DNA from: Maribacter sedimenticola
GTDB taxonomy: Bacteria > Bacteroidota > Bacteroidia > Flavobacteriales > Flavobacteriaceae
Length of the DNA stretch: 64,000 bases
Assembly (NCBI RefSeq): GCF_900188415.1
Contig: NZ_FZNV01000008.1
Span: 62,001 to 126,000, forward strand
Reading direction: 5' to 3'
The notes below the pieces were generated by a model. The model worked only from the letters and a program-made list of their open reading frames with translations. It had not been told where the DNA came from and searched no databases. Of this stretch, positions 13,561 through 35,756 are shown one piece after another. The position numbers and the translations under genes were made by a program. Each line of letters begins with the position of its first letter. Position 1 is the stretch's first letter.

Positions 13561-13760
13561 TTAAGGTATTATATCTCGCGTCGATTATCGAAAGTAGCTT
13601 AGAACTGGCCATAAATTATATACGGTGTCAGCCAATGGGTTTTCTTGTTTATTCATTGACGGTCCAGAGCAAAATTCTAAAGATTTGGCGGGCATTAAAA
13701 AAATATACGAACCTTTGGTTTTAAGCCCCAATCCCGTAATGTTTAAAAGTTTTGTTGCAG
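13561..13760. repeat. decayed cassette sites at the far end of the array
   Basis: Two site remnants lie in tandem. 13588-13633 resembles the right half of the A-type sites (CGAAAGTAGCTTAGAACTGG, then ATAAATTATA-N6), but its core reads GTC, not GTT. 13661-13760 resembles the right half of B-type sites (GTCCAGAGC, AAATATACGAACCTTTGG) and ends in GTTGCAG at 13754. The left halves are unrecognisable. They mark the boundary between the array and the FUSC gene. Confidence 0.7.
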
Positions 13761-13767
13761 TGCGTAT

Positions 13768-14436
13768 TTATTCCGTCCGAGTAGCTACAACTTCTCCAGT
13801 TTCATTCGGGACACCATAGAATTTCAAAACATTTTCATTTACCTCACTAATTGGTAAAGTGACTCCTTTTCTTCCTCGTTTAAATATGGAAATAAAATAA
13901 GTTGATTCTAATTTTTCTATTATCCATTTCGAACCTTCTTTCCATTCCAATTCTTTCAATTTTTTCTTATCCCACAGTTCTTTGTTGAAAGCTATTTTGG
14001 TTTTTGATTTACCTTCTACTTGAAATTCAAAATTTAAGCTTTCAATTTCTTCCTGGCTTAAGTCCGTCTTAGTGGGTAGAAGTCTTACAAAGTCCATTTC
14101 AATAATAACGTTATCATCGTTAAAAGTTCCATTCACTAGAAGTCTCAAAAAGTTTTCATTGAGCAACTTTAAATCCGCATATTTTTCTCCATTTTCGAGA
14201 ATTAGCGTATTATCTTTTACGTTTAAATCCAATTCAGATTTTGTCAATTGCAAATTGGTAAAAAGTCCTGCTTTATTAGTTTCAAAATTTAGAATTTGAA
14301 GTCCGGGATTTTTTTTGAATTCCTTATAGCCAACTTCTTTCAGGATCCATTTTCCATCCAATTGTTGACCATTAGTAGTTTTGAAAATCATAAGTGTTGT
14401 TATCAGCAGTTTTCTTTTTTTCCAAATGCGCCACAA
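13768..14436 (-). CDS. cassette gene: secreted protein, unknown function
   Basis: A frame of 222 codons. The first 25 residues look like a signal peptide (KKRK, then LLITTLMIF, cleavage near NGQ), and the rest is a beta-rich domain beginning QQLDGKWILKEVGY, as in small lipocalin-like or DUF4488-type proteins; no firm match. The start is uncertain: the only upstream start is TTG at 14436, inside the recombination core of the next site (14431-14437), whereas the first ATG (14391) would cut the signal peptide in half. The native start may have been lost when the cassette inserted. This is the last, most decayed unit of the array. Confidence 0.65.
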   Translation of the reverse strand: MWRIWKKRKLLITTLMIFKTTNGQQLDGKWILKEVGYKEFKKNPGLQILNFETNKAGLFTNLQLTKSELDLNVKDNTLILENGEKYADLKLLNENFLRLLVNGTFNDDNVIIEMDFVRLLPTKTDLSQEEIESLNFEFQVEGKSKTKIAFNKELWDKKKLKELEWKEGSKWIIEKLESTYFISIFKRGRKGVTLPISEVNENVLKFYGVPNETGEVVATRTE

Positions 14437-14564
14437 CGGCTAAGCTATGAAAAGTTGCGGTGTGAAATCCGACAGGATTTCGGCCCGCAGACTAAATGTA
14501 TTAAATATGTGTGGATTTTCTCAAGGTAAAATCCGACCGGAATTAATTGTAGGTGTTGTTACCT
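14431..14564. repeat. cassette recombination site (C type)
   Basis: An attC-like site of 134 bases. The low arm is CACAAC-N8-TATGAAAAGTTGCGG and the high arm AATTAATTGTA-N6-GTTACCT. The inner stem-loop is GAAATCC-GACA-GGATTTC at 14464-14481, and the arms pair imperfectly. The high core GTTACCT (14558) matches AGGTAAC (15416) across the next gene. The low core CCACAAC has only a weak partner at 13754. Confidence 0.75.
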
Positions 14565-14571
14565 GTAGTTT

Positions 14572-15408
14572 TTATTCTGCTATTCTCTTTAATAATTCCG
14601 CTGTTTTTGATTCAATTGCTCCAATGTATTTTAAATCAATTGCTTTTTTGTGAGTCAGCATTTGATAGAAAACACAAGCATTTAAAAAAGAACCGTTCGC
14701 ATTTGGATGACTATCATCATCGTAAAGTTCAATATCTGGATATTCGGTTAGGATTTCATAGTATTTAGTTCCGTTGTCGGATTTCTTAATTCCATTTTTT
14801 TCTGCAACTAAATCATAAGATTCGTTAATCAGTTTAATTTCTTGTTCTAAATTTTCAATCTTTGGCGAACAACACTTATCCTTTTCAATTGATATGTCAA
14901 TCATTCTAGATTCATAACAATATTGTTTTGGATATTCCTTTTTTGAAGGCCAAGTATTGAACAATATAAATTCGCAATTAGGATTGTCTGCCAAATATTT
15001 GATATCTAAAACTGCTTTATTAACTTTTAGTTCCCTGTTTTCAGGAATAAGGACACTTACAGTCCCAGTTTGTAGAATAATAATGTCCCATTTTTTTTCT
15101 TTTAACTTTATTTCCGTTTCTGTGATTTCGCCATCTTCTTTTTTCCGAACGCTAATTCCGTTCTCTGTTCTTAAGGTTACAATGTCAGTTAAATGTCCAG
15201 ATAAAGATTGTCCAGGATTTGTCATTTGGTCAATTTTTATGTTGGGATTGGTTTCATCCAACATTTTTTGAAGCGTTTGAGGCATATCGTAAAAATAAGT
15301 CAAACTATTTCCAATGAACAAGACATTCAACTGTTGGGATGATTGTTTTTTTTGAGAGTTACAACTAATAATTGTAAAAGCTAAAATGATTAGCAGAATG
15401 TTTTTCAT
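14572..15408 (-). CDS. cassette gene: SGNH/GDSL-like lipoprotein
   Basis: A 278-residue lipoprotein, lipobox TIISC (Cys16). An SGNH-type hydrolase domain follows: block I is LNVLFIGNSLTYFYDMP with the nucleophile Ser in GNSLT, block II is in NPGQSLSGHL with Gly, and the block V-like DDSHPNANGSFL near the C-terminus supplies the Asp/His pair. The block III Asn is not clear (IILQTG in its place). It resembles DUF4886-type proteins, which may deacylate sugars or lipids; substrate unknown. The unit's boundaries are GTTACCT (14558) and AGGTAAC (15416), a perfect match. Confidence 0.8.
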   Translation of the reverse strand: MKNILLIILAFTIISCNSQKKQSSQQLNVLFIGNSLTYFYDMPQTLQKMLDETNPNIKIDQMTNPGQSLSGHLTDIVTLRTENGISVRKKEDGEITETEIKLKEKKWDIIILQTGTVSVLIPENRELKVNKAVLDIKYLADNPNCEFILFNTWPSKKEYPKQYCYESRMIDISIEKDKCCSPKIENLEQEIKLINESYDLVAEKNGIKKSDNGTKYYEILTEYPDIELYDDDSHPNANGSFLNACVFYQMLTHKKAIDLKYIGAIESKTAELLKRIAE

Positions 15409-15415
15409 AAATTAT

Positions 15416-15599
15416 AGGTAACGGTTGAGTTAAAGCTTAAGGCCTTCCTGCCGGCAGAAAGGTTTAGTTTTCTTTTCTTGTCCAAAGCTAAATTTGAATA
15501 TTTCGCTAACGCGTAATTTTCAATTTAGCGACATTATAAATATACACAGACCATTCGGTTTTGCCCTAAAGTCCGCATTACGTTTAGCCTTTGTTAGCT
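15416..15599. repeat. cassette recombination site (B type)
   Basis: A site of 184 bases. The low core is AGGTAAC (15416-15422), and the high arm GCATTACGTTTA-N6-GTTAGCT ends at 15599. Its central part carries TTGTCCAAAGCTAAATT and AATTTAGCGACATTATAAAT, which pair, as in the other B sites. An internal copy GCTAACGCG at 15504 suggests an inserted or rearranged piece. The low arm is less conserved (TTAAAGC in place of TATGA). Confidence 0.75.
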
Positions 15600-15615
15600 A
15601 CTGCTTTATTTGTTT

Positions 15616-16005
15616 TTACAGACTAATACTTCCAAAAAGTTGTTGAAAATACATTTGCTTGTTTGGTGCTTTCAATTTCATAATTCTTTTACCTTTTTCG
15701 TCCGTTATTTCAATTTTATATTGTCCGTTCATTAAATCAATATTTGACTTAATCACTATCGAATCGGTTCCCCTAATAATATAATTAGCCACTATATTCT
15801 TTCTGTTTTCATGCTCCAGAAAAATAATTAATTTACCATTTTTACTAAATATTGCTGGCTTTACAATATAAGATAGTTTACTATCTAAATATCCTAAAAA
15901 TTCTGTTGTGTCTAAAATAATATACTTAGCAGACCATTTCCCGACAATTTCATTTTCTGGTTTTCTGTCGCCACAAGAAAGTATTGACATTAAGTTTATT
16001 ATCAA
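15616..16005 (-). CDS. cassette gene: small lipoprotein, unknown function
   Basis: A 129-residue product. The short N-terminus ends in a lipobox-like SILSC (Cys11), then about 115 residues predicted as beta-sheet (EIVGKWSAKYIILDTTEF, GKLIIFLEHENRK, GQYKIEITDEKGKRIMKL), like lipocalin-type lipoproteins. The N-terminal stretch is short for a signal peptide. Codon use is AT-richer than in the housekeeping genes nearby. The unit's boundaries GTTAGCTAC (15593) and GTAGCTAAC (16048) match over 9 of 9 bases. Confidence 0.75.
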   Translation of the reverse strand: MIINLMSILSCGDRKPENEIVGKWSAKYIILDTTEFLGYLDSKLSYIVKPAIFSKNGKLIIFLEHENRKNIVANYIIRGTDSIVIKSNIDLMNGQYKIEITDEKGKRIMKLKAPNKQMYFQQLFGSISL

Positions 16006-16047
16006 TAAAGGATATAATTTGATTTTGACATTGTATTTTTTTAAGTT

Positions 16048-16249
16048 GTAGCTAACGCTTGAGCTATGAACAGTACGGGAGCAAACTAGCGTTTACTTTC
16101 CGCTAAGCACATAGCGAAATCTTTTGGTTTTGTTTTTTCTTTTTTTGTGTCAAAGCGAAATCCCAAAGATTTTGCGAACATCATAAAAATACGCAAACCT
16201 TTCGATTAAGACTGAAACCCGTATTGTTTATAGGTTTTGTTGTCATTAG
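16048..16249. repeat. cassette recombination site (B type)
   Basis: A site of about 200 bases. The low arm GTAGCTAAC-N8-TATGAACAGTACGG pairs with the high arm CCGTATTGTTTATA-N6-GTTGTCA, with only G-T wobbles over 14 bases between the inner arms. The core flanks GCTAAC and GTTGTC do not match each other; each matches the far end of its own neighbouring gene unit instead. The inner stem is GCGAAAT..ATTTTGC near 16154-16174. Confidence 0.8.
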
Positions 16250-16268
16250 TTTTTTCCGCAATAGTTTC

Positions 16269-16979
16269 TTATTTTTTGACCGCTCTAATGCACATAAAAG
16301 CTGGAAATTCATTGAGTTCTTTATAATGTTTTTGGTCTAATTCTTCAAATTCCTTCAAAGGTTTTGGTTCTACTAATTTGTCAATATAAAATCCGTTTTC
16401 TGTTAGTGGTGCAATACAATCGTGTAGTGGTCTTCTGTGACTATTAATTTCAATTGGATTACCAAAACCAGACCAAACACAGTTAACAGCTTCTGTTTTA
16501 AAGTATTCGGTCGATTTATAATAATTATATTCAAAAAAAGGATGTTCGATTGAGATGATTAATTGACCATTATTTTTGAGAACTCTATGGAATTCTTTAA
16601 TTGTTAAGTCCCAATCTTCTAGGTAATGCAAAGCCAATGCGCACAGGACAAAGTCAAAGGATTTGTCTTCTATCATTGTCAAAGGCTCACATAAATCGTG
16701 GACAAAGAATGTTCCTTGATTCTTGTTTCTTTGCTTTGCAAATTTTATCATCTCTGAACTAAAATCGAACCCAGTTACTTGCGCATTTTTTGAAAGTAAG
16801 ATTTCTGCATATTTACCAGGTCCACAAGCTGCATCAAGAACCGATTTGTTTTTTACTTCTTTAAGTAAATTCAATGTATTAGGTCTATCGTAATAAGCAT
16901 TATGAGGTTTGTGTTCTATTAATCTGTTATAGCTTTCAGCTAATTCATTATAGGCCTTTTTGATTTTCTCATTGCTCAT
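16269..16979 (-). CDS. cassette gene: class I SAM-dependent methyltransferase
   Basis: A 236-residue cytosolic methyltransferase. Motif I is VLDAACGPGKYAEILL at about 50-65, the acidic end of strand 2 is VTGFDFSSEMI, and motif IV is FDFVLCALALHYLEDW. RVLKNNGQLIISIEHPFFEYN fits the UbiE/TehB-like group. Substrate unknown. It is the last gene of a three-gene cassette: a Crp/Fnr-type regulator, a membrane protein, then this gene 2 bases after the membrane protein's stop. Confidence 0.88.
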   Translation of the reverse strand: MSNEKIKKAYNELAESYNRLIEHKPHNAYYDRPNTLNLLKEVKNKSVLDAACGPGKYAEILLSKNAQVTGFDFSSEMIKFAKQRNKNQGTFFVHDLCEPLTMIEDKSFDFVLCALALHYLEDWDLTIKEFHRVLKNNGQLIISIEHPFFEYNYYKSTEYFKTEAVNCVWSGFGNPIEINSHRRPLHDCIAPLTENGFYIDKLVEPKPLKEFEELDQKHYKELNEFPAFMCIRAVKK

Positions 16980-16981
16980 AG

Positions 16982-17620
16982 CTATTCCTTGTTATATTGA
17001 ATTAATGATATTCCTGAACATAAAATCCAACCTGCGATACTAAAGACAAATATTCTGAAACCTGTAAGACTTGTAAATACAAAATTCGTAGTTGCACCGA
17101 TTATCGCAAAAATTAAAATTACAATACCAAAATATCCAATCCATTTAGGTAGTTTTTTTGATTTAATCATAATTAAAGAATAAATACTTATCGCAGTACA
17201 AAATGAAATTATAAATACATAGTCCAAAGCTTTATTTACAGCAAAACCATAATTAATTATAGGTTTTATAGTTGTAATATTCTGTTCAAGGTTTTCTGAA
17301 TATTGACCAAAAAAATTAGGTAAGACTAAACCATTAAAAAGTGCTGCTAGCATTGCTGAGAAAAGTCCGAATGCAATTATGATAAAAGCTAAAGATGATA
17401 ACTTCCATTTGTCTGAAAGCTTAAAGGTTAGACCATAAAAACCAAACAGAATGAATGGTAAACAAAAGATTGCTAATGCGTGTGTTATCTTTAATGGTGT
17501 AGACATTTGAGTAATATGCTCAATGTTACCTCCTGATGGGTGTAACATCATTGTTGTGATAGCTAAAAAAGAGCCAACAGTTAGTGAAATTCCCGTGCTT
17601 TTGTAAAAATTTGTTTCCAT
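16982..17620 (-). CDS. cassette gene: DUF4386-like membrane protein
   Basis: A 212-residue protein with six likely membrane helices: the first has TGISLTVGSFLAITTMML and the last FRIFVFSIAGWILCSGI. The pattern is like DUF4386 and related small integral proteins; no transport motif is visible. It lies between a Crp/Fnr-type regulator (86 bases upstream) and a methyltransferase (2 bases downstream). The regulator probably controls this pair. Confidence 0.75.
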   Translation of the reverse strand: METNFYKSTGISLTVGSFLAITTMMLHPSGGNIEHITQMSTPLKITHALAIFCLPFILFGFYGLTFKLSDKWKLSSLAFIIIAFGLFSAMLAALFNGLVLPNFFGQYSENLEQNITTIKPIINYGFAVNKALDYVFIISFCTAISIYSLIMIKSKKLPKWIGYFGIVILIFAIIGATTNFVFTSLTGFRIFVFSIAGWILCSGISLIQYNKE

Positions 17621-17705
17621 TATTATTTTGATATTTTATTTAAGGACAAATATCAAAGGAATATGAAAAAATAGCACTTGATTGAGATCAAGAAACAAAT
17701 TAATT

Positions 17706-18266
17706 TTAGATAAATCTTTTTCTAACTCTACTCAATGTTTCTGGCGTCATTTTAAGGTATGAAGCTATGATTGTTTGTGGAAATTTTTGAAGAAGGTTAG
17801 GTTTGTTTGTTATTATATAATTATACTTCTCATCAGGTGAAAAATTATTATCAAAAAAATCTATTCGTGAAGTAGATTCTTCTAGAATTTTTCCCATCTG
17901 AAGAAAAGACTGTGATTGAGCAATCAGCTTATGTATTGCATCTATAGAAATTTCATAGAAAGAACTGTCTTCAAAAGCTTGAATGGAACATTCCGATGGT
18001 TTTCTTGAAGTAAAACTTTTGTGATTTATTACCCAATCATTAGCAATATTTAGGTCGATGATATTCTTATTAAAACCGGAATCTATGCTGTATTGATAAA
18101 AGCTGCCTGAAACAATAAAACATAATGAAGAGCAAACTTTCCCTTTTTCAAGTAGAATATCTCCTTTTTTTAATTCTTTAAATTGAAGTTCTTGTTTTAG
18201 AAGTATCGATTCCTTTTCGGAAAACTTTCCTGCTTTATTTAGAAATTTCGAAATCGATTTATCCAT
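17706..18266 (-). CDS. cassette gene: Crp/Fnr family transcriptional regulator
   Basis: A 186-residue protein with a cyclic-nucleotide-binding-like barrel (LKKGDILLEKGKVCSSLCFIVSGSFYQY at about 33-60) and a short C-terminal helix-turn-helix (PQTIIASYLKMTPETLSRVRKR). This is the layout of Bacteroidota Crp-like regulators. No cAMP-binding Arg-Ser pair is evident, so the ligand is unknown. It is the first gene of a three-gene cassette and would bring its own control. Confidence 0.85.
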   Translation of the reverse strand: MDKSISKFLNKAGKFSEKESILLKQELQFKELKKGDILLEKGKVCSSLCFIVSGSFYQYSIDSGFNKNIIDLNIANDWVINHKSFTSRKPSECSIQAFEDSSFYEISIDAIHKLIAQSQSFLQMGKILEESTSRIDFFDNNFSPDEKYNYIITNKPNLLQKFPQTIIASYLKMTPETLSRVRKRFI

Positions 18267-18298
18267 TAGTTTAATTGTCTCTCAATGTTTCTTCAAAA

Positions 18299-18502
18299 TT
18301 AATGCCAACGCCTGGGCTATGATTATTGCGGGGCAGAAATCCGACGGATTTCCAGCTACGCGCTAAGCTAAAGCTTTTGGTTTTGATTTGTTTTTTGTTT
18401 TGTCCAAAGCTAAATCCAACAGATTTAGCGACTTCATAAATATACACAGACCTTTCTTTTTTGCCTTAAACTCCGCATTACTTTTAGGTTTTGTTGGCAA
18501 CA
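18299..18502. repeat. cassette recombination site (B type)
   Basis: The best-preserved B site, about 200 bases. The low arm is TGCCAAC-N8-TATGATTATTGCGG and the high arm CCGCATTACTTTTA-N6-GTTGGCA. Two inner stem-loops are GAAATCC-GAC-GGATTTC (18336-18352) and GCTAAATC-CAACA-GATTTAGC (18409-18429). Here the two ends match each other as well as their partners across the flanking genes (9 of 11 at 16239; 10 of 10 at 19029). Confidence 0.8.
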
Positions 18503-19023
18503 GTTTTTTTTATTCGGCTAATTATACTTTCTGTTTTTAGCTTATCAAAATCATCTTTTAGCTTTTTCCATTCTCGATAATCAGAATCCACTTCTTCAGG
18601 CCTTTTGCCTTTCATTTCAGAGTAATTCGTAACATGATTTACTAATTCCAAGTGAGCAAGCCTTTTGGTTAATTTACGGTCAATCTTTTCATTCCGACTA
18701 AATAGTTCTTGAAGTTTTGTTTTTAGTTCATTTGGATATCGAGTAAGTAATTCAGCCGAACCTAACAGATTAACCTCAATATTCGATTTCGTTAATAAAG
18801 TCCACAATTGGTCAAAATTCGGTTCTGGTAATTTTACAAATCCGTATTCATTTCCCCAACCAGAATCCCATAGGATTTCATTCATCCATAAATTCCCTTT
18901 TTTGTCAACAAAATGTTCTGTTCCGTCAACTTTTCTCAACCCGAAATCTTCCGGCTTACTTTTATTATATCTAAAAGAAGCTAAAAAATGCTTTTCGTTA
19001 ATGTCGATGTTCTCTGGTCTCAT
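18484..19023 (-). CDS. cassette gene: unknown cytosolic protein
   Basis: A 179-residue hydrophilic protein without signal peptide. KVDGTEHFVDKKGNLWMNEILWDSGWGNEYGFVKLP is aromatic-rich, followed by a helical, charged half (KLQELFSRNEKIDRKLTKRLAHLE). No family recognised. Its last codons read TVANKT and then the stop at 18484-18486, so the coding region ends inside the recombination site; the site itself supplies the stop codon. This ties the gene to the site downstream of its 3' end and supports the usual integron order of gene, then site. Confidence 0.75.
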   Translation of the reverse strand: MRPENIDINEKHFLASFRYNKSKPEDFGLRKVDGTEHFVDKKGNLWMNEILWDSGWGNEYGFVKLPEPNFDQLWTLLTKSNIEVNLLGSAELLTRYPNELKTKLQELFSRNEKIDRKLTKRLAHLELVNHVTNYSEMKGKRPEEVDSDYREWKKLKDDFDKLKTESIISRIKKTVANKT

Positions 19024-19028
19024 TAAAT

Positions 19029-19163
19029 TGTTGCCAACGTGTTTGTATATGGTTTGATGCGTGGTTAAGCACCTAATTTAGTAAATAAAAAACCGAATAG
19101 AAAATCCGCGAGGATTTTCGTAAGTAGGCTAGAACTAGCAATAAATTATACATGTTGTTAGAC
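19029..19163. repeat. cassette recombination site (A type)
   Basis: A site of 135 bases. The low arm is TGCCAAC-N9-TATGGTTTGATGCG and the high arm GCAATAAATTATA-N6-GTTAGAC. The inner hairpin GAAAATCC-GCGA-GGATTTTC is at 19098-19117, followed by the A-type block GTAAGTAGGCTAGAACTAGC. The low core matches the unit below it (10 of 10); the high core GTTAGAC has no good partner at 19645. Confidence 0.8.
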
Positions 19164-19170
19164 ATAGTTT

Positions 19171-19632
19171 TTATTCTAAAATCAGTTTTAACTCTCCGTG
19201 TTCAGGAATCAAATTCCACTTTTTGCAAAGTTGGTCAAATTCCGATTTCATTTTTTCAATAGCTGATAAGTTCATAATCGGAACTCTAATTCCACTGATA
19301 TTTTTAGATTCCCAATTTACTAATTCAATGTATTGTTCTGTTTTTGCTGCACCAGAACCAATGGATTGAAGATTTCTCGCCATAATTTCTGATAGCCAAG
19401 TTTCAGAGCCCAAATTTTGAATTATTTTTTTATCGGATAATTCTTCTATTGTCATTCCAGATTTAACCTTTCCGTAAAAACCATTTTCCAGTTTGAATCC
19501 TTTTTCAACAACATAGTGAGCAATATCATGATACGGGATATCTGGTCCAAGATTTACACTTGTTATTGTTCCATCTTTTCTTTTACAAATTAAGGTATTT
19601 CTATTTTTACCTTTAGTGATTATTATTTCCAT
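19171..19632 (-). CDS. cassette gene: unknown cytosolic protein
   Basis: A 153-residue protein without signal peptide. PDIPYHDIAHYVVEKGF has a His-Asp...His arrangement, then FYGKVKSGMTIEEL and a C-terminal helix IEKMKSEFDQLCKKWNLIPEHGEL. Similar small proteins appear in Flavobacteria, but no function is known to me. Its unit is the exception in the array: the high core of the site below (GTTAGAC, 19157) does not match AAATAAC at 19645, so its borders may have been altered by recombination or deletion. Confidence 0.75.
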   Translation of the reverse strand: MEIIITKGKNRNTLICKRKDGTITSVNLGPDIPYHDIAHYVVEKGFKLENGFYGKVKSGMTIEELSDKKIIQNLGSETWLSEIMARNLQSIGSGAAKTEQYIELVNWESKNISGIRVPIMNLSAIEKMKSEFDQLCKKWNLIPEHGELKLILE

Positions 19633-19644
19633 TTCTCAAATTGC

Positions 19645-19701
19645 AAATAACGACTTTGATTAAGTACTAAACCACAATTATTTTTATAAGGTGTTGTAAA
19701 T
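19645..19701. repeat. short cassette recombination site
   Basis: A reduced site of 57 bases. The low core is AAATAAC and the high end TTTTTATAAGGTGTTGTAAAT. It lacks the inner stem-loops of the longer sites. The high core GTTGTAAAT matches ATGTACAAC at 21631 across the next three-gene unit over 8 of 9 bases, so it still has a functional-looking boundary. Confidence 0.55.
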
Positions 19702-19713
19702 TTTGCTGTTACT

Positions 19714-20451
19714 TTATTCTACTAATTCCATCAACATTATTCTACCACCAAAATCTATTTCTTGTTTCAAAATCTTTCTTGTTGATTTATCTATGAAATA
19801 GTTCATTATTGCGGTATTATCTGAAATATCATCAGTAGTTTCAACTTTCCATACTTGAGTCTTTTTGCCATTAAAATTGATGCTTGTCTCTTCTGTGTTT
19901 TTAATTGTTGCAGTTATTACTCCAATTTTAGAATTAGGATTATAGTCAAAAATCGAAATAGTATTTGAGTAACCATTTTTTAGAGGAAGTAATCTTATTA
20001 ATTGTGGATAAAAATTACTGTCAAAAAAAGGTTTATCTTCTTTTTCTAAAATTTCTGTTTTTTTGTCAGTTTGTTTATCTAAATAATAGCCTGTAATTTT
20101 TTCTCCAAATTCTAATATCATATCTCTTTGTTGATTAAATGAAGAATGATATATGGGTTTAAATGTTTTATTTTCAACTATTGTACTGTCAATCCATTTG
20201 GTTGGTGACTGTTTCATGCTGACGGTTGTGATAATATATATTTTCTCTTTTTCTTTCTGAATTTGAGTTTGTATAGTTCCTATTTGAATTTTGAGAGTAT
20301 CTTGAAGCATAAACCAAGACATCTTTGATGTTTCAGAGTTTATTAGTTGTTCATTAACAGTATTATTTAACGGACTCAATAAAGTTTCTTGACTAAATAA
20401 TTGAACTGAGGCTCCGAAAATAAATAGTAAAATGTAAAGGGTGTTTTTCAT
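19714..20451 (-). CDS. cassette gene: secreted DUF3108-like protein
   Basis: A 245-residue protein with a signal peptide (NTLYILLFIFGASVQLFSQ). A mostly beta domain follows in which SFNQQRDMILEFGEKITGYYLD, LIRLLPLKNGYSNTISIFDY and the ending TQVWKVETTDD..NYFIDKSTRKILKQEIDF resemble DUF3108/TapB-like periplasmic proteins. It is the third gene of a cassette with an AraC-type regulator and a small ABM-like protein, 41 bases after the latter. Confidence 0.75.
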   Translation of the reverse strand: MKNTLYILLFIFGASVQLFSQETLLSPLNNTVNEQLINSETSKMSWFMLQDTLKIQIGTIQTQIQKEKEKIYIITTVSMKQSPTKWIDSTIVENKTFKPIYHSSFNQQRDMILEFGEKITGYYLDKQTDKKTEILEKEDKPFFDSNFYPQLIRLLPLKNGYSNTISIFDYNPNSKIGVITATIKNTEETSINFNGKKTQVWKVETTDDISDNTAIMNYFIDKSTRKILKQEIDFGGRIMLMELVE

Positions 20452-20492
20452 TTGTTTATGTTTTATATGCGCTTTTAGGCATAGATTATTAG

Positions 20493-20780
20493 TTAATCTC
20501 TTAATTGGAAAATAATATCCATAATTTCAATATTTGGCGCATCATTAATAGCGTAGGCTGATGGAATACTTTTGGCTAAATCAGATTCTTGGTATTTTTT
20601 TAGAGATTGTAGAGAGTCCCAAACGTATACTCCTCCATATTCTCCGTCTTTACTTGTTTTTACATAGTATTTTTGTAGAAGACCTGAGATAGATTTAAAA
20701 TTAGATTCTCTTTCTTTTGCTCTTTTTAGTAACTCATCTTCTGGTAAATCCGATTTCAACTTAATAATTTGTAATACCAT
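20493..20780 (-). CDS. cassette gene: small ABM/YdhR-like protein
   Basis: A 95-residue protein with the ferredoxin-like fold signs of ABM monooxygenase-like proteins: MVLQIIKLKSDLPEDELLKRAKERE, then GLLQKYYVKTSKDGEYGGVYVWDS and SLQSLKKYQESDLAKSIPSAY. Members are often monooxygenases or have no known substrate. It lies between the AraC-type regulator (32 bases) and the DUF3108-like gene. Confidence 0.75.
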   Translation of the reverse strand: MVLQIIKLKSDLPEDELLKRAKERESNFKSISGLLQKYYVKTSKDGEYGGVYVWDSLQSLKKYQESDLAKSIPSAYAINDAPNIEIMDIIFQLRD

Positions 20781-20812
20781 AATAATTAGATTTTGATTTT
20801 TAAAATCGCAAT

Positions 20813-21562
20813 CTATTTATTTTTGATGATGGAAAATTGTAAAAATCGGTCGTTTTCATTTTTTAGCAAAGTAGAAGGTGTAAATCCTGTTATTTTCTTT
20901 ATTTCTTTAATAAAATGTGATTGATCAAAATAACCTTCTAAAGGATATAACTCTCCGTTTTTTATCTGGCTATATGTGATAGCACCTTTTCGGATATTGC
21001 AATAACTTTTTAAGGAAAGTCCAAAAGTAGATTGAAAATATCTATTTATTTGTCGTTTCGACCAATTCGCTTTTTGCGAATAATATTCAACTGTTTTATT
21101 TCCTTTTGTTTGATTAATAGATTTTAAAAGAACTGATTTTCTGGAATCAATTCTCTCTTTTTCTTTAATAGACGCTAACAAACAGCTGTTGAGGTATTCA
21201 AATAACCAATCATCGCTATTTTTATTAAACTCATCAAGTCTTAAATAAGTTTTATCTATTTGTTTTATTTCATTAAGAAGTAAACTAATATTCTCTTTAA
21301 TTATATTTTCGACAGCAAGCAATCTAAACTGTACTCCATATATTGTAGTTTCAGGTGAGATAACTACATTGGTTTTATGATTCCATAGACCAGATAAAAA
21401 CACATTTTGTAGATTGTCATTATGATAGCAAATTAATAAATCGAAAAAGCCATCAGGAAATATTGTATACTGCTGATAATTCTCATTCTTATTTTCAATT
21501 TTCCAGTAACACCTTATATAATCTTTAAGATTTTGATGTGGTTGTTGTTGAGAGTAAATCAT
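20813..21562 (-). CDS. cassette gene: AraC family transcriptional regulator
   Basis: A 249-residue regulator. The N-terminal half (HQNLKDYIRCYWKIENKN, TIFPDGFFDLLICYHND) is the DUF6597-type ligand-sensing part. The C-terminal half (VEYYSQKANWSKRQINRYFQSTFGLSLKSYCNIRKGA and GYFDQSHFIKEIKKITGFTPS) is the double helix-turn-helix of AraC. It is first in its three-gene cassette, so the unit is likely self-regulated. Confidence 0.9.
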   Translation of the reverse strand: MIYSQQQPHQNLKDYIRCYWKIENKNENYQQYTIFPDGFFDLLICYHNDNLQNVFLSGLWNHKTNVVISPETTIYGVQFRLLAVENIIKENISLLLNEIKQIDKTYLRLDEFNKNSDDWLFEYLNSCLLASIKEKERIDSRKSVLLKSINQTKGNKTVEYYSQKANWSKRQINRYFQSTFGLSLKSYCNIRKGAITYSQIKNGELYPLEGYFDQSHFIKEIKKITGFTPSTLLKNENDRFLQFSIIKNK

Positions 21563-21630
21563 CCAAAACTCTATTTAATATTTGTTGCTTCTTGTTTGTT
21601 TACGTTTATTAATTCGATTTTCAATTAATT

Positions 21631-21904
21631 ATGTACAACGCGGCGCTATGTGTAGTCCGCGATATTTTATGGAAATATAGTGAAAACCCTTTTTGGTTTT
21701 CGACGGTATTGGGAATAAAATATGGCGGTCCTTCCGAGCGTAGCGAACACATGAATTCGTTAATAAATAAACAGTTATGAATAAATTACATATAGTGACT
21801 GGATATGTTGGGTTATTTTCTTCCGTTAAGCGTCGTACTTAGAAAAGATACCCTTATCCTACGGTTTTATGTGATCTGACATAGCGCTGCGATGATGTTG
21901 CATT
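21631..21904. repeat. large cassette recombination site
   Basis: A 274-base site. The low arm ATGTACAAC-N7-TATGTG has GCGCTATGT (21643-21651), which pairs perfectly with ACATAGCGC (21879-21887) of the high arm; the high core is GTTGCATT (21897-21904). It is longer than the other sites and its middle carries no recognised motif. It closes the three-gene AraC unit on the high side. Confidence 0.65.
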
Positions 21905-21973
21905 TCCCTTTGTGCGGGAATCGAGGTACGAGATGTAGCACATAGGGTCGACGTAGGAGAATGCAACATCATC
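21891..21973. repeat. ORF-less mini-cassette between two sites
   Basis: GATGATGTTGCATT (21891-21904) and AATGCAACATCATC (21960-21973) are a perfect 14-base inverted pair, as expected of the two ends of one cassette, but only 55 bases lie between them and no gene fits. The interior holds a second inverted pair (CCCTTTGTGC with GCACATAGGG, 9 of 10), so the whole could also be a fold-back insertion. Confidence 0.6.
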
Positions 21974-22100
21974 GGTTTGGCTATGATTTCGGTGTGGAAT
22001 CGTCCGCAGGACTATTCCGCAGAGAAATCAACTTAAATATATGTTTTACTTTCGGTTTTTGCACTGTCGCTACGCTGAATTATAGCCGGTGTTGTAAACC
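21960..22100. repeat. cassette recombination site (C type)
   Basis: A site of 141 bases. The low arm is AATGCAAC-N14-TATGATTTCGG and the high arm GCTGAATTATA-N6-GTTGTAAACC. The TATGATTTC arm pairs with GAATTATA except for one extra base, like the bulged bases of integron attC sites. The inner hairpin is GTCC-GCA-GGAC (22003-22013). The high core GTTGTAAACC (22091) matches GGTTTACAAC (22734) over 10 of 10. Confidence 0.75.
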
Positions 22101-22721
22101 GTTTTTATTTTTTATACCGTATTTCTCCGCCAACTTATTGATTCCCTTTTTATGAACTTCAGGGCTTTGGTCTATATATTCTGGGTATAATTTTTCTAGT
22201 TTGCTTATCATTCGATATTCTCCATACATTATAAACTTAAGCAAATTCACGTCATAGTCTTTATACTCGTTTTCTAGGAAATCAATTAGGTTAAAATCAT
22301 TGTCCACCTTTGAGAAAAAAGGTAAAATTTTTGTTTTTAAGACATGCACGAGTTCATGTTTTATTTTAGTCGTGTCGGTATTCTCTTCAATTTCGTACCA
22401 TTTGTCATTTCCGTCTAAAAACTGTCCAATTCTTTTTCTAACCACGCAAACTGGTTCTGTCGGATATTTAGGTGGATTAGACTCATTCTTGAAGTTAAAT
22501 CGTGCTTTCCAAAATACATTAGAAAAGAGTCCGGTATTAACTGTGAAGGAAATTCTATCCTTTGAACCAAACATAGTTTTCTGAATATTAATTATATGTC
22601 CGAATTCCGATAAACCTTTGTAAAAGTTGTTGGATTTTTTTTTGAATCCGAGCGGTTTTAATTCTTCATGAAAACAAGTTTTTATTATTTCTTCAAATTT
22701 TAATTCAGCATTAGTTTTCAT
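22080..22721 (-). CDS. cassette gene: DUF4304 domain protein
   Basis: A 213-residue cytosolic protein of the DUF4304 family: LKPLGFKKKSNNFYKG at about 20-35, FGHIINIQKTMFGSKDRISFTVNTGLFS, then KWYEIEENTDT. Members occur in many bacterial accessory regions; function unknown. The gene runs into the recombination site: its last residues GLQHRL and stop are encoded by 22080-22100, which includes the core GTTGTAAACC. So the site is part of its own unit. Confidence 0.85.
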   Translation of the reverse strand: MKTNAELKFEEIIKTCFHEELKPLGFKKKSNNFYKGLSEFGHIINIQKTMFGSKDRISFTVNTGLFSNVFWKARFNFKNESNPPKYPTEPVCVVRKRIGQFLDGNDKWYEIEENTDTTKIKHELVHVLKTKILPFFSKVDNDFNLIDFLENEYKDYDVNLLKFIMYGEYRMISKLEKLYPEYIDQSPEVHKKGINKLAEKYGIKNKNGLQHRL

Positions 22722-22733
22722 TAGAGTGGAAAT

Positions 22734-22934
22734 GGTTTACAACGGTTTAGCTATGAACAGTACGGGAGCAAACTAGCGTTTGCTTTCCGCCACGCACATA
22801 GCAAAATCTTTTTGTTTTGATTTATTTTTTCCTGTCCAAAGCTAAACCCATAAGATTTAGCGACTTTATAAATATATACTGACCTTTACGTTTGGCCCAA
22901 AAGTCCGCATTACGTTTAGGTTGTGTTAGCAAAT
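22734..22934. repeat. cassette recombination site (B type)
   Basis: A site of about 200 bases. The low arm is GGTTTACAAC-N8-TATGAACAGTACGG and the high arm CCGCATTACGTTTA-N6-GTTAGCAAAT. The inner stem GCTAAACC..GATTTAGC is at 22841-22862. GAACAGTACGGGAGCAAACT in the low arm also occurs in the site at 16048. Both cores match their partners 10 of 10. Confidence 0.8.
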
Positions 22935-22945
22935 GTTTTTTGGTT

Positions 22946-23494
22946 CTATTCAAACATAAAACTTCTTAATTCACCTTTTTTATACTGTTTTAAAGCTTTT
23001 TTTAAATTTTTATTCAAGAGTGACATGTCATTTTTATCCAAATATTCCATAAAAATCTCACCGCCTTTAAATAGTATTTCTTGAACTTCGGGTAAGTCTA
23101 TAAATTTAATTCCCTCCTGTTTTTCGGGATGTACATATCTATTGTTATTTAGATGTTCATTCAGTAAATATTTAGTCATTGAAGCCATATAAATATTTTT
23201 CAGGTATGATTTTTCATCAATTATATCCATTAATTTACCACCTATTATTATTCGATAGTTGGAAGTTCCATCCATCCAAGTGATTAAGGATTTGTGTGCA
23301 TAGTAGTATTTTTTTGTTTCTTCTTTGTAAGGTCGATTTAATAAATAATCAACAGCATTTTGAATATCGGAATCTACATTATCATATTCTTCTTGAGATT
23401 CGAAGTTGCTTACTTTTTTATACAATTTTTCAAAATCTTGAGAATAGCCTATTTTGAAAAATGTTAGTAGAACTATTAAGAGTATTTTTTTCAT
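22946..23494 (-). CDS. cassette gene: secreted protein, unknown function
   Basis: A 182-residue protein with a signal peptide (KKILLIVLLTFFKIGYSQ) and a mainly helical domain (FEKLYKKVSNFESQEEYDNVDSD, MASMTKYLLNEHLNNN). It ends in a basic stretch LNKNLKKALKQYKKGELRSF. No family recognised. The unit is bounded by GTTAGCAAAT and ATTTGCTAAC, 10 of 10. Confidence 0.75.
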   Translation of the reverse strand: MKKILLIVLLTFFKIGYSQDFEKLYKKVSNFESQEEYDNVDSDIQNAVDYLLNRPYKEETKKYYYAHKSLITWMDGTSNYRIIIGGKLMDIIDEKSYLKNIYMASMTKYLLNEHLNNNRYVHPEKQEGIKFIDLPEVQEILFKGGEIFMEYLDKNDMSLLNKNLKKALKQYKKGELRSFMFE

Positions 23495-23505
23495 TTGATT
23501 ATAAT

Positions 23506-23643
23506 ATTTGCTAACGGTTTTGTGTATGATTTCGTTGCGTGTTTCAGCAACTAAATTAGCAAATACAAACCGAATAGAAAATCCGCGAGGATTTTCGTAA
23601 GTTGGCTAGTACTAGCAATGAATTATACACGGTGTTGTGCAAC
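23506..23643. repeat. cassette recombination site (A type)
   Basis: A site of 138 bases and the clearest attC-like fold. GTGTATGATTTCGTTGC (low arm) pairs with GCAATGAATTATACAC (high arm) with a single extra base and two wobbles. The centre has GAAAATCC-GCGA-GGATTTTC (23578-23597) and the palindrome GCTAGTACTAGC (23605-23616). The cores are ATTTGCTAAC and GTTGTGCAAC. Confidence 0.82.
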
Positions 23644-23644
23644 G

Positions 23645-24178
23645 TTATATATTTTCACTTATGCAAGTTGCACCTTTTTTAATTGCTTTTATTTTCTGTT
23701 TTGTTTTTCCTTTTGCTTCTAGGTCAACATGTTCTCCTTCGTCTGTATCTGGAATTCTAATAATATCAATTTTAGATTTAGTCAAACTTTTCAATTCCGA
23801 ATTGTTTAATAAAAATGTAAAAGAATAAGCTGTAAAGTTTTCAGAACTTGTTGTGTTAAACCCGCCACCAAATCCAGGGAAAAAAGGTCCGTTAGATGAA
23901 GATGTAATATTTTCAATTTTTGGTTTGGATTGTTTTATTGTTTTTAGTTCAATTTTAGAGCCGTTTTCAAGTTTAACTAATATTTCAGTTCCTTCAGGAA
24001 ATTCATGCTTTCTTTCTCCCCAATAGCTAAACTTAATGTCAAATCTTATCGAGTCATTTTTTATTTCAAAATAAACAGTTTTATTATAAAAATCAAATGA
24101 TGTTATTTTCTCATTTGTAAATGGGTCTTTGTCGGTTTTACACTTTTGAGAAAATGTTTTTATTGAAATTAGTAACAA
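23645..24178 (-). CDS. cassette gene: secreted protein, possibly frameshifted at its start
   Basis: A frame of 177 codons, first unit after the integrase remnant. As read, it starts at TTG (MLLISIKTFSQKC), a poor start. Upstream on the minus strand is ATG followed by eight A; with seven A the frame would begin MKKTALILLLLISIKTFSQ, a perfect signal peptide. So the true gene probably begins at 24203 with a one-base slip at 24193-24200 (decay, phase variation or slippage). The mature part is beta-rich with a Gly-Phe-rich stretch (GPFFPGFGGGFN). No family recognised. Its stop is two bases beyond the core. Confidence 0.7.
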   Translation of the reverse strand: MLLISIKTFSQKCKTDKDPFTNEKITSFDFYNKTVYFEIKNDSIRFDIKFSYWGERKHEFPEGTEILVKLENGSKIELKTIKQSKPKIENITSSSNGPFFPGFGGGFNTTSSENFTAYSFTFLLNNSELKSLTKSKIDIIRIPDTDEGEHVDLEAKGKTKQKIKAIKKGATCISENI

Positions 24179-24215
24179 TAAGATTAGGGCTGTTTTTTTT
24201 CATATCGGTTTTTTC

Positions 24216-24256
24216 TAATGTTGCACAACGTAAGAATATAGATCATATGATCTATA
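24216..24256. other. array head junction with a 20-base palindrome
   Basis: TAATGTTGCACAAC (24216-24229) is the high boundary of the first cassette; its core matches 23634-23643. It is followed 7 bases on by the perfect palindrome TATAGATCATATGATCTATA (24237-24256). No site arm (TATGA or TTA-N6) follows, so this resembles the single-core junction expected between an attI-like insertion site and the first cassette. The palindrome's role is unknown. Confidence 0.5.
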
Positions 24257-24302
24257 TATATTTCATATGCGGAACTAAGATAAAAGATTTTTTATACCAT
24301 TA

Positions 24303-24640
24303 AAGGAGGATTCTGCCAATGGGTGTAAATTTCTGTTGTTTTGGTAGAACTATGACCCAATAATACTTGTATATGCCGTCTTCCATAAGGTGTGTGGTAA
24401 AACTGTGCTTGAGCATATGCGGGGAGCTACTTTTTATGGGTTCCCACTCTTATGGCGGCCATGGAAATCAGTTTCAATCCGTAGGATACCGTATAGGCCT
24501 TCTATTTTGGGTCTAAAAAATAAAGACCTTTGGATTTGTATTTCTTGTAATAAGTGCGAAGTTCCTTTAATAGGGTAGGGCTTAATACGGTCATTCTATC
24601 TTTCTTGTGCTTATATTTATTCGCGTCCCTCTAAAAGGGC
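24303..24640 (-). pseudogene. broken tyrosine recombinase (integrase)
   Basis: Three frames together give the C-terminal half of a phage-type integrase: KHKKDRMTVLSPTLLKELR and YYKKYKSKGLYFL (about 24504-24615), AAIRVG then APHMLKHSFTTHLMEDGI (24385-24450), and after a frameshift IQVLLGHSSTKTTEIYTH (24320-24375), with the catalytic His and Tyr. At least two frameshifts and stops break it, and the box II motif reads HMLKH where active enzymes have HxLRH, so the second catalytic Arg is Lys. The N-terminal half is not recognisable between 24640 and 24829. It is on the same strand as the cassettes, with its 3' end facing them. Whether it was an IntI or an XerC/D-like enzyme cannot be said. Confidence 0.8.
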
Positions 24641-24829
24641 GTTTAACGCTACAACTTTCCGGTTTTTAGGGTCATGTAACGAAAAATAGGTTTACCACTG
24701 CATTGAAAGATCACCATTGGCGGCATATATTTTAGGGACAGTAAAGTTTCGTCTTATGAATCATATGCACTTTCATATTCATTACTGTATTCAAAGGTGG
24801 GCAACTTTTTGAAATTAGGCATAAAAAAA

Positions 24830-24853
24830 ACGGTCTAGCGAAAGCTAAACCGT
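24830..24853 (-). terminator. intrinsic terminator downstream of tRNA-Met
   Basis: A hairpin of ten pairs with one mismatch (ACGGTCTAGC-GAAA-GCTAAACCGT), followed on the minus strand by eight T. It lies 17 bases after the 3' end of the tRNA gene. Confidence 0.8.
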
Positions 24854-24869
24854 AGATTTTGTTACTTAG

Positions 24870-24942
<73 letters not shown>

Positions 24943-29776: not shown

Positions 29777-30562
29777 CTACCAACCACCAGAAGCGCCGCC
29801 GCCGCCAAAGCCACCGCCGCCGAAACCTCCTCCAAATCCTCCGCCGCCAAAACTTCCGCCGCCACCGCCAAAACCTCCTGATCCGTTGGAGCGTCCCATA
29901 TTGCTAAGAATGATCATATCCCACGGGCTAAGACCTTTTCTTCTACCTCTACCGTTATTGTTATCATCATCTTTTCTGCTCCACAATAAAAATAAGATCA
30001 GGATAAATATTATAAACGGCAGATAAGAGGAGAACGGAGTACCACTACCGGTATCAAAGGAACGTTCTTCCTTAAACTCACCGTTCAATACTTGAAAAAT
30101 GACATCTGTTCCTTTATCCAGGCCTGCATAATAGTTTCCGGTCCTGAATTCAGGAAGAATAATGTTTTCTATAATACGTTTAGATAAGGCATCGGTCAAC
30201 GAACCTTCAACACCATAGCCGGTATTAATGGCTATCTTTCTATCATCCTTGGCCAATAAGATCAGTATACCGTTATCCTTGCCCTTTTGTCCAATGCCCC
30301 AGGCTTGTCCCCAATTTGCACCCAGGTAGTTGATGTTTTCGCCCATGGTACTACCAATAATGGCAACTACAATTTGGGTAGAGGTACTGTCGGAATAGCG
30401 CACCAGTTTCTGGCTCAATGCAACTTTTTGTTGACTATTTAATAGGTCTAGATAATCATATACGCTGGTTTCTAGCGCTGGCTTTTCAGGAATTTCAAAT
30501 TGACTCCAAATGGGGTTGCACCAAAAAAAAAGAATTAAAAGACTAGCCTTTAGATATCTCAT
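29777..30562 (-). CDS. secreted TPM domain protein with Gly-rich tail
   Basis: A 261-residue envelope protein. It has a signal peptide (LLILFFWCNPIWSQ), a TPM/DUF477 domain at about 25-150 (VYDYLDLLNSQQKVALSQKL, GKDNGILILLAKDDRKIAINTGYGVEG), one membrane helix (YLPFIIFILILFLLWS) and a C-terminus of almost only Gly, Phe and Ser. TPM proteins act in photosystem repair or membrane protein turnover in other groups; their bacterial role is not settled. It overlaps the preceding TPM gene by 20 bases. Confidence 0.88.
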   Translation of the reverse strand: MRYLKASLLILFFWCNPIWSQFEIPEKPALETSVYDYLDLLNSQQKVALSQKLVRYSDSTSTQIVVAIIGSTMGENINYLGANWGQAWGIGQKGKDNGILILLAKDDRKIAINTGYGVEGSLTDALSKRIIENIILPEFRTGNYYAGLDKGTDVIFQVLNGEFKEERSFDTGSGTPFSSYLPFIIFILILFLLWSRKDDDNNNGRGRRKGLSPWDMIILSNMGRSNGSGGFGGGGGSFGGGGFGGGFGGGGFGGGGASGGW

Positions 30563-31001
30563 TGCTCAATTCATTGGTGTCGTCCGTTTGCCACGGAAAA
30601 TGCGCTTTTAATTCCAAACCTGCCTTAAGGATTCCTGCTATAATACCTTCTTTGTAAGCACCTTTGATAAAATGTTTTTGAATGGTATCTTTTGTAGTTT
30701 GCCAAAAATCCGCAGGAACTACCTTATCTATGCCCTTATCGCCGCAGATAACAAATTTTCTATCATTGACCGCCACATAGAGCAAAACACCGTTCTCCTG
30801 TTTGGTGTTATCCATTTTTAAGATATGGAATACCTCCTTGGCCCGTTCATAATGATCTTTTGTGGTATGTGCCTCTATATGCACCCGTATTTCGCCAGAG
30901 GTATTGTTTTCGGCCTCTATAATAGCCTCCACAATTTCTTGTTCTTCGGTTTGTGTCAAAAAATCTTCTACTCTGGACATATAGGGATCAATCAAATTCA
31001 A
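30543..31001 (-). CDS. cytosolic TPM domain protein
   Basis: A 152-residue protein with a TPM/DUF477 domain (IVEAIIEAENNTSGEIRVHIEAHT, NGVLLYVAVNDRKFVICGDKGIDKVV) and no signal peptide. It lies between lemA (14-base overlap with its end) and the secreted TPM gene (20-base overlap). LemA and paired TPM proteins commonly go together in Bacteroidota. Confidence 0.88.
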   Translation of the reverse strand: MNLIDPYMSRVEDFLTQTEEQEIVEAIIEAENNTSGEIRVHIEAHTTKDHYERAKEVFHILKMDNTKQENGVLLYVAVNDRKFVICGDKGIDKVVPADFWQTTKDTIQKHFIKGAYKEGIIAGILKAGLELKAHFPWQTDDTNELSNEISKG

Positions 31002-35661: not shown

Positions 35662-35756
35662 AAGAACTACTATTTAAATTTTGGTTGGGCCAATTCCCTT
35701 ATTGAATTGGGTATTTGGGCGAGTACGAATTTTTAACAATTGATAATACATAAATT

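Follow-up and report, generated by a model that had tools for sequence, protein, structure and literature searches.

Background

Sedentary chromosomal integrons carry large arrays of small-gene units that run in one direction, with sites that have an AAC/GTT core and unequal inner-arm spacers, R''/R' boxes that pair in a unit-specific manner, and an array-start site next to the integrase. We describe a system that resembles them in these respects, with an attI-like candidate for the array-start site and another enzyme in place of IntI, starting from an array in a 64,000-bp stretch of the Maribacter sedimenticola genome (positions 62001-126000 of contig C19 in a 4.27-Mb assembly of 20 contigs; hereafter the window). 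In this array eleven units on the minus strand, separated by attC-like repeats, follow an attI-like palindrome and the remnant of a recombinase gene, and from sequence comparisons we propose that it was very probably built by a tyrosine recombinase other than IntI, with units passing in and out at a shared GTT.

IntI possesses an additional domain that PMC9668308 gives as one of its defining characters; PMC8138268 describes this insertion as incompletely conserved in an integron-like subgroup, yet essential for integron function. Bacteroidota appear in the lists of phyla with integrons in PMC8618304 and PMC9668308, and the IntegronFinder 2.0 survey (PMC9024848) states that In0 elements alone had previously been seen in Bacteroidetes and names one complete integron, that of Salinibacter ruber. 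In a metagenome survey that used models trained on known attC sites, the main text, searched by term, has no mention of Bacteroidetes (PMC7370490). We found no description of the present system in the open-licence literature held in PMC, preprints and closed journals being outside the scope of that search.

The system differs from sedentary chromosomal integrons in that its recombinase lacks the IntI insertion and falls outside the IntI clade, and in its sites, which have 16-nt arms with two A/C mismatches, unit starts that depart from GTTRRRY, and an attI-like palindrome with 11-bp arms. In having no working integrase of its own the window array resembles a CALIN (cluster of attC sites lacking integron integrases), but its broken neighbor is a non-IntI recombinase and its sites are of another architecture.

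Organization of the window array

The array spans approximately 13.6-24.2 kb of the window with every unit on the minus strand. Read 5' to 3' from the right on that strand, the order is tRNA-Met, recombinase remnant, attI-like palindrome with GTT, and then the eleven units down to about 13.6 kb. In the window's list of open reading frames (ORFs) the units contain 14 ORFs of 95-278 codons, one unit having none and two having three each. An earlier reading made from the sequence alone (the sequence-only reading) had recognized the array and its single strand; its count of thirteen genes is replaced by the 14 ORFs, and the feature runs beyond the end it assigned, through the attI-like palindrome (24236-24257) and the remnant (to ~24606). 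The features are as follows, all on the minus strand; each unit's R''/R' match, where given, compares its start after GTT with the R'' box of its own 3' site, and enzyme groups A and B are treated with the recombinase below.

24870..24942, minus: tRNA-Met, the right border of the variable locus (flank conservation in 20 other species of the genus)
24275..24606, minus: remnant of a group B tyrosine-recombinase gene, from its 3' part (DNA 85.2% identical to the end of the intact recombinase on C11, locus L029)
24227..24257, minus: attI-like site, 11-bp inverted arms, 6 nt and GTT (palindrome 24236-24257; 50-mer identical in L029)
23515..24228, minus: unit 1, ORF 23645-24178 (own R''/R' 6/6)
23505..23646, minus: attC-like site 1 (covariance model E 7.3e-23)
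22743..23514, minus: unit 2, ORF 22946-23494 (own R''/R' 6/6)
22733..22937, minus: attC-like site 2, arms from two subtypes (covariance model E 2e-37)
21968..22742, minus: unit 3, ORF 22080-22721, DUF4304 (own R''/R' 6/6)
21962..22103, minus: attC-like site 3 (covariance model E 6.3e-7)
21639..21967, minus: unit 4, without an ORF, four copies in the genome (closed by an odd attC-like site at ~21637-21899)
19651..21638, minus: unit 5, three ORFs: DUF6597/AraC-like, ydhR-like and DUF3108 (own R''/R' 5/6)
19641..19705, minus: attC-like site 5, truncated (covariance model, best E 0.026)
19038..19650, minus: unit 6, ORF 19171-19632 (own R''/R' 1/6)
19028..19169, minus: attC-like site 6 (covariance model E 3.5e-20)
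18309..19037, minus: unit 7, ORF 18484-19023 (own R''/R' 6/6)
18299..18505, minus: attC-like site 7 (covariance model E 1e-34)
16056..18308, minus: unit 8, three ORFs: cyclic-nucleotide (cNMP)-binding, membrane-type and methyltransferase (own R''/R' 5/6)
16046..16251, minus: attC-like site 8, the best preserved (covariance model E 3.3e-43; passes the strict finder)
15422..16055, minus: unit 9, ORF 15616-16005 (own R''/R' 6/6)
15412..15605, minus: attC-like site 9 (covariance model E 2.6e-15)
14437..15421, minus: unit 10, ORF 14572-15408, DUF4886 (own R''/R' 5/6)
14427..14570, minus: attC-like site 10 (covariance model E 3.6e-12)
13595..14436, minus: unit 11, ORF 13768-14436 (own R''/R' 3/6)
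13595-13766, minus: last site, of unit 11, decayed and hybrid (covariance model E 1.3e-14)

Pfam matches among the array ORFs comprise DUF4304, DUF6597 (with additional weak AraC-type matches), ydhR, DUF3108, cyclic-nucleotide-binding, methyltransferase and DUF4886 domains; one further ORF has sub-cut-off matches only, and 6 of the 14 have no Pfam match at E 0.01. The ORF-less unit, of about 340 bp, occurs at window 21629-21985, at 30423-30775 and 35679-36019 of the joined loci L017+L018+L019, and at L020 2433-2783, with GATGATGTT replacing GTT at the start of two copies.

Architecture of the attC-like sites

In the loci read, the sites follow a single plan: AAC is separated by 5 nt from a 16-nt arm, and beyond the centre the complementary arm is separated by 7 or 8 nt from GTT, with total lengths of 117-127 or 185-192 nt. 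A strict arm finder, which permitted a left spacer of 4-6 and a right spacer of 6-9 and whose scoring favours matched arms, returned 96 sites at score 12 from the window and the recombinase/array loci examined, with arms starting N-T-A, a left spacer of 5 in all 96 and a right spacer of 7 or 8 in 93; in 177,006 bases of shuffled control it returned none even at the looser score of 11. The arm consensus of the sequence-only reading was right in substance, the refined form being AAC-N5 before the 16-nt arm on the left and N7/8-GTT after the arm on the right. Within the window only one site passes the strict finder, indicating that this array is decayed.

We used two covariance models for the window, built from 51 short sites (alignment A1, 51 of 53 de-duplicated sites) and 62 long sites (alignment A2, 62 of 67), the dropped rows being unclear, odd or on the opposite strand. 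Their searches returned ten sites in the window, all on the minus strand and inside the array, at E-values from 3.3e-43 to 0.026 (the site at 16046-16251 is itself among the rows building the long model), and the best match outside the array, among 24 rows from both searches, had an E-value of 0.41. The short-site alignment shows changes on both sides of the arm pairs in 147 cells as against 46.4 on shuffling, and a covariation score of 0.402 as against 0.101, a signal partly built in by choosing sites through arm matching. The canonical RYYYAAC/GTTRRRY core is absent: AAC and GTT are kept, but starts such as GTTGTGC and GTTAGCA violate the RRR. At gathering thresholds no Rfam family matched the sites in the window, L233, L235 or L144.

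Some sites display further peculiarities. The site at 22733-22937 has a left arm of one subtype and a right arm of another, as if recombined inside the site centres. The long sites at L235 5364-5570, L234 5661-5867 and L237 4167-4373 match the model on the opposite strand too, and are thus near-palindromic over their whole length. Lists of direct and inverted repeats made the repeat family visible, though not the logic of the units; a generic hairpin scan with free spacers gave 5 matches in the array, 8 on the opposite strand and 3-4 in controls, and was superseded by the fixed-spacer finder.

An asymmetry between the strands is embedded in the arms. When sites were picked by chains of R''/R' pairing alone (172 candidates), 61 had at least 10 of the 14 other arm positions paired; in these a left A stands opposite C at arm position 5 in 55 and at arm position 10 in 58, and the reverse arrangement occurs at neither. 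On the complementary (bottom) strand both A/C mismatches are converted to G/T wobbles, and folding of whole sites with DNA parameters makes the bottom strand the more stable in 104/133, compared with 63/133 random stretches. Judging by these patterns, the mismatches are a likely strand selector. In integron attC sites the bottom strand is chosen via extrahelical bases, the unpaired spacer and the variable end, as set out in PMC8946536; in the sites described here mismatches take the place of bulges. The spacers of these sites are unequal (5 versus 7 or 8).

Units pair with their own sites

Pairing between the start of a unit and the R'' box of its own site serves as a sign of circular cassettes. 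Comparing each unit start with the reverse complement of its own 3' R'', a test free of the selection bias of arm matching, we found all of positions 5-9 matching in 56/69 units, as against 1/69 for the R'' of the preceding site, and mean matches of 4.55 as against 1.65 with shuffled R'' boxes. The two large arrays of a relative, G044, behave likewise, with own-box pairing in 43/47 and 32/39 units and pairing to the neighbor's box in 4 and 3. Over positions 4-9 in ten units of the window, the own match is 6, 6, 6, 5, 1, 6, 5, 6, 5 and 3 of 6 and the match to the earlier site's R'' is 2, 2, 4, 1, 2, 4, 1, 4 and 0 of 6, the earlier site used for unit 5 being that of unit 3. These units thus pair R'' with R' inside the unit as integron cassettes do, and by analogy with integrons the pairing would be the trace left by excision as a circle and re-insertion.

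Evidence for the movement of single units

In the relative G044, assembled in one contig, the two arrays contain 49 and 40 strict sites in one orientation against 0 and 1 in the other, with the enzyme heading the first. Among its 87 units, the six largest clusters of repeated units are a 557-560-bp unit present twelve times (identity 0.968 on average and 0.832 at the lowest; three pairs in tandem), units of 704 and 741 bp present three times each (identity 0.995 and 0.980), and units of 765, 885 and 1677 bp present twice each (identity 0.999-1.000). Mean flank identity around these repeated units is 0.42-0.63 on the left and 0.38-0.46 on the right, and the listed copies diverge at GTT. In the window's own genome, a 733-bp match of 99% between contigs C12 and C8 has a left flank diverging at GTT, another unit lies both inside the C12 array and beside an attI-like palindrome on C19, and the four copies of window unit 4 have right flanks that diverge after GTT. 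Taken together, these comparisons indicate that single units have been gained or moved. The unit-wise behavior anticipated by the sequence-only reading is borne out to the extent that single units occur in varied contexts and their flanks part company at GTT or a few bases from it, as seen between arrays of one genome, and mainly in that of a relative. Scanning for junctions from every GTT triplet was confounded by the conserved site sequence, and its output was not used. Across genera, a block of 92% identity, starting at a site AAC and followed on the right as far as the border of the compared stretch, is common to L061 (8859-9832) and L072 (18031-19000).

These observations bear on the notion that the repeats are hairpins of the miniature inverted-repeat transposable element (MITE) or repetitive extragenic palindromic (REP) type, or terminators, which spread by transposition or homologous exchange and are not cassette borders. 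Such elements would account for repeats that fold and sit between genes, and for mosaic sites such as that at 22733-22937; yet a hairpin element does not predict that a unit start agrees with the unit's own R'', which lies hundreds of bases off, and not with the next one, and the divergence of flanks at or beside one position and the fixed strand of the strict sites (49 and 40 versus 0 and 1) likewise render this notion hardly credible. The sequence-only reading had named repeats independent of gene borders as what would speak against its integron-like interpretation; the repeats proved to be tied to gene borders and to a recombinase, and that interpretation is supported by own-box pairing and GTT-bounded units.

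The array-linked recombinase

The window array has lost its own enzyme, and intact ones are encoded elsewhere in the same genome. On C12 an array lies directly beside an intact, divergently read recombinase of 355 amino acids (aa), and C11 carries a second intact enzyme of 375 aa at about 170 bp from the contig end. Across the family, arrays are headed by relatives of about 375 aa. The enzyme is upstream of the array and co-directional with it in 12 group B loci as well as in L080, and it is divergent from the array in the five group A loci (the C12 type). No strict site occurs in the short stretch left by their contigs in L029, L063 and L066; L069 has one strict site 6 kb from the enzyme, and L072, with a 305-aa enzyme, has three sites by the site model R1 and none by the strict finder. 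Across 80 named recombinase loci, R1 gives 62 matches in 20 loci, 19 of them from Bacteroidota, including Seonamhaeicola aphaedonensis (seven), Winogradskyella ursingii, Algibacter onchidii, Flavobacterium enshiense and Algoriphagus ornithinivorans; the match outside the phylum, in L173 (Peregrinibacteria), is weak at 32.9 bits and probably due to chance. Neither the XerC-like, XerD-like and one other recombinase locus of the window genome nor 12 IntI loci had a site match below E 0.1; a strict search for canonical attC near these 12 IntI genes was empty, and the loci are usable only as a negative contrast. A further array enzyme in decay is the group A recombinase at G080:C27:45075-46136 (L037, L066), broken by two TAA stops.

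Several lines of evidence separate this enzyme from IntI. The NCBIfam model for the integron integrase, TIGR02249, scores 187.8 bits against a cut-off of 265, and none of the Xer housekeeping families reaches its cut-off either (XerA 207.2 against 220; XerC 184.6 against 335.15; XerD 183.2 against 329.6). The gap between two motifs, measured in 15 IntI and in one of two Xer proteins, is 64-65 residues in 22/22 measured enzymes of the array-linked families and 106 in 15/15 IntI, and by this gap the IntI-specific additional domain is missing from the array-linked enzymes. In a quick tree of 77 rows (among them 19 of 20 IntI loci and, from the 80 named loci, 18 of 19 chosen array loci and 17 of 19 chosen non-array loci, with L066 omitted), the 19 IntI form a single branch with a Shimodaira-Hasegawa-like approximate likelihood ratio test (SH-aLRT) value of 100, and every array enzyme lies outside it.

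The array enzymes possess approximately 80-100 additional N-terminal residues with a common motif, which in the C12 enzyme are modelled in the order strand, strand, helix, strand, strand, helix (mean predicted local distance difference test score, pLDDT, 83.0; predicted template modelling score, pTM, 0.52). This part is also present in several Bacteroidota relatives without detected sites, and is lacking from the 305-aa frame of L072 as read. By sequence the closest proteins are XerA/XerC-like recombinases (PDB 4a8e, 5hxy), from which the array enzyme is distinguished by the extra N-terminal domain and by its array-linked position; the best PDB match of the C12 enzyme model is nevertheless an IntI, 2a3v.

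The attI-like site and the tRNA-Met locus

The binding arms of Xer recombinases are 11 bp, as are those of the attI-like palindrome. The remnant beside it, 24275..24606, has no minus-strand ORF of 60 codons. The window and the intact C11 recombinase copy are identical for 54 bp up to GTT and diverge within three bases after it, and the paralogous platforms L067 and L068 have their attI-like stretch in common with different sequence after GTT. As the window and the intact C11 recombinase have identical attI-like sites, the C11 enzyme could serve the window array in trans. Elsewhere on C19 (L022/L023, C19:1-40000), three attI-like palindromes (around TTACCGGTAA) precede GTT near 663, 6794 and 16489, within about 16 kb; two of them have in common a stretch of ~440 bp that starts at AAC and may be a cassette with an attI-like site of its own.

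We compared the tRNA-Met locus in 20 other species of the genus (20 of 35), one of the stretches being only 2.8 kb. In these 20 other species the flank is conserved to the end of the tRNA-Met or ~280 bp beyond and then differs; L222 has five sites, L230 one weak site (E 0.012) and the remaining 18 none. This comparison shows only that the locus is variable, and not that units are gained or lost in place. In G001 the same tRNA-Met has an intact group B recombinase within a few kb, and this locus (L220 10982-15147) also has a split phage-type integrase-like frame. At 24584-24866 the window retains beside the tRNA-Met some 280 bp similar to the G001 locus.

Distribution across the family and phylum

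The custom site models advocated by the sequence-only reading, besides recovering the ten window sites, detected sites at E <=0.001 in 87 of 100 sampled genomes of the family, taken to be Flavobacteriaceae from its named relatives, and in 110 of 247 genomes of the phylum, under Infernal's stricter filters and with at most 32 (family) or 13 (phylum) candidates scored per genome. At E <=1e-80 the enzyme profile matched 69 of the 100 family genomes, namely 68 of the 87 with sites and one (G092) of the 13 without, many of the latter being small. Canonical IntI exceeds its cut-off in 70 of the 247 phylum genomes, with 71 having a match, none of them from this family; R1 sites are present in 26 of these 71 and in 84 of the 176 others, so that the sites do not track IntI. 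In another family of the phylum (f34), six genomes (G153, G165, G181, G192, G216 and G219) have both canonical IntI and R1 sites; those of the listed sites that were compared are on contigs without the IntI or at distances of tens of kb from it.

These distributions are pertinent to two alternatives. The first is that the array is an ordinary IntI integron after loss of intI, i.e. a CALIN, with the adjoining recombinases as bystanders. The unit order, the AAC/GTT core and the own-box pairing are indeed integron-like, and canonical IntI does occur in the phylum; but with no family genome among the 71 with an IntI match, sites that are independent of IntI and absent below E 0.1 from the 12 IntI loci, and a non-IntI enzyme that tracks them (68/87 versus 1/13), we consider this very unlikely. 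The guess of the sequence-only reading that the sites form a distinct family holds. The second alternative accepts the cassettes as real and mobile, and has them moved by XerC/XerD or an unlinked enzyme, the linked recombinase handling only the attI-like site or nothing. Although an Xer model is the closest NCBIfam match of the linked enzyme and 19 of the 87 genomes with sites lack this enzyme at E 1e-80, its position and orientation relative to the arrays are fixed within each group, and the XerC and XerD loci of the same genome have no sites, making this alternative improbable.

Proposed mechanism of a probable non-IntI platform

The system is not an IntI integron, and we do not file it as one because defining features of IntI integrons are absent from it. 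The best reading of the comparisons is that the platform works like an integron and is run by a non-IntI recombinase. Under this proposal the bottom strand of a site, whose arms covary, would fold on its two arms, with the G/T wobbles marking that strand for the enzyme; the linked recombinase would then cut at GTT and release a circular unit, in which the unit's own R'' and R' pair in full; and the circle would be inserted either at the attI-like site or at a different attC-like one.

Several observations weigh against this proposal. The array enzymes are spread over several branches of the tree, interspersed with nine non-array rows that come from other phyla, so that a single origin of these enzymes is not shown. 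Only 7/15 first-unit junctions have an attI-like palindrome that passes a 2% shuffle test (random stretches, 12/300). Simple cutting at GTT is at odds with the copies of unit 1 in the window and on C12, which have different sites; one unit has different spacers immediately before GTT in its C12 and C8 copies, and the blocks shared by L061 and L072 and within C19 start at AAC and not at GTT. Window units 6 and 11 pair poorly with their own R'' (1/6 and 3/6), and the enzyme is missing at E 1e-80 from the 19 site-bearing genomes noted above.

On balance we lean towards a broader interpretation, that this is an independently evolved second integron: a Xer-like lineage of Bacteroidota, in which an N-terminal domain of its own replaces the IntI insertion, would have acquired the capture and shuffling of cassettes with strand choice by A/C mismatches, and would occur in the majority of the family genomes sampled while being missed by surveys based on IntI and attC. 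The alternative origin would be as a sister branch of IntI.

Conclusions

If the system works as proposed, many small genes of unassigned function in Flavobacteriaceae and their relatives would be cassette-borne and could be exactly delimited, the supposed dependence of cassette shuffling on the IntI insertion would become directly testable, and the two-mismatch code would offer a simple handle on strand choice in folded-DNA recombination. For the organisms themselves, the system likely lets members of the family gain, lose and reorder genes unit by unit.

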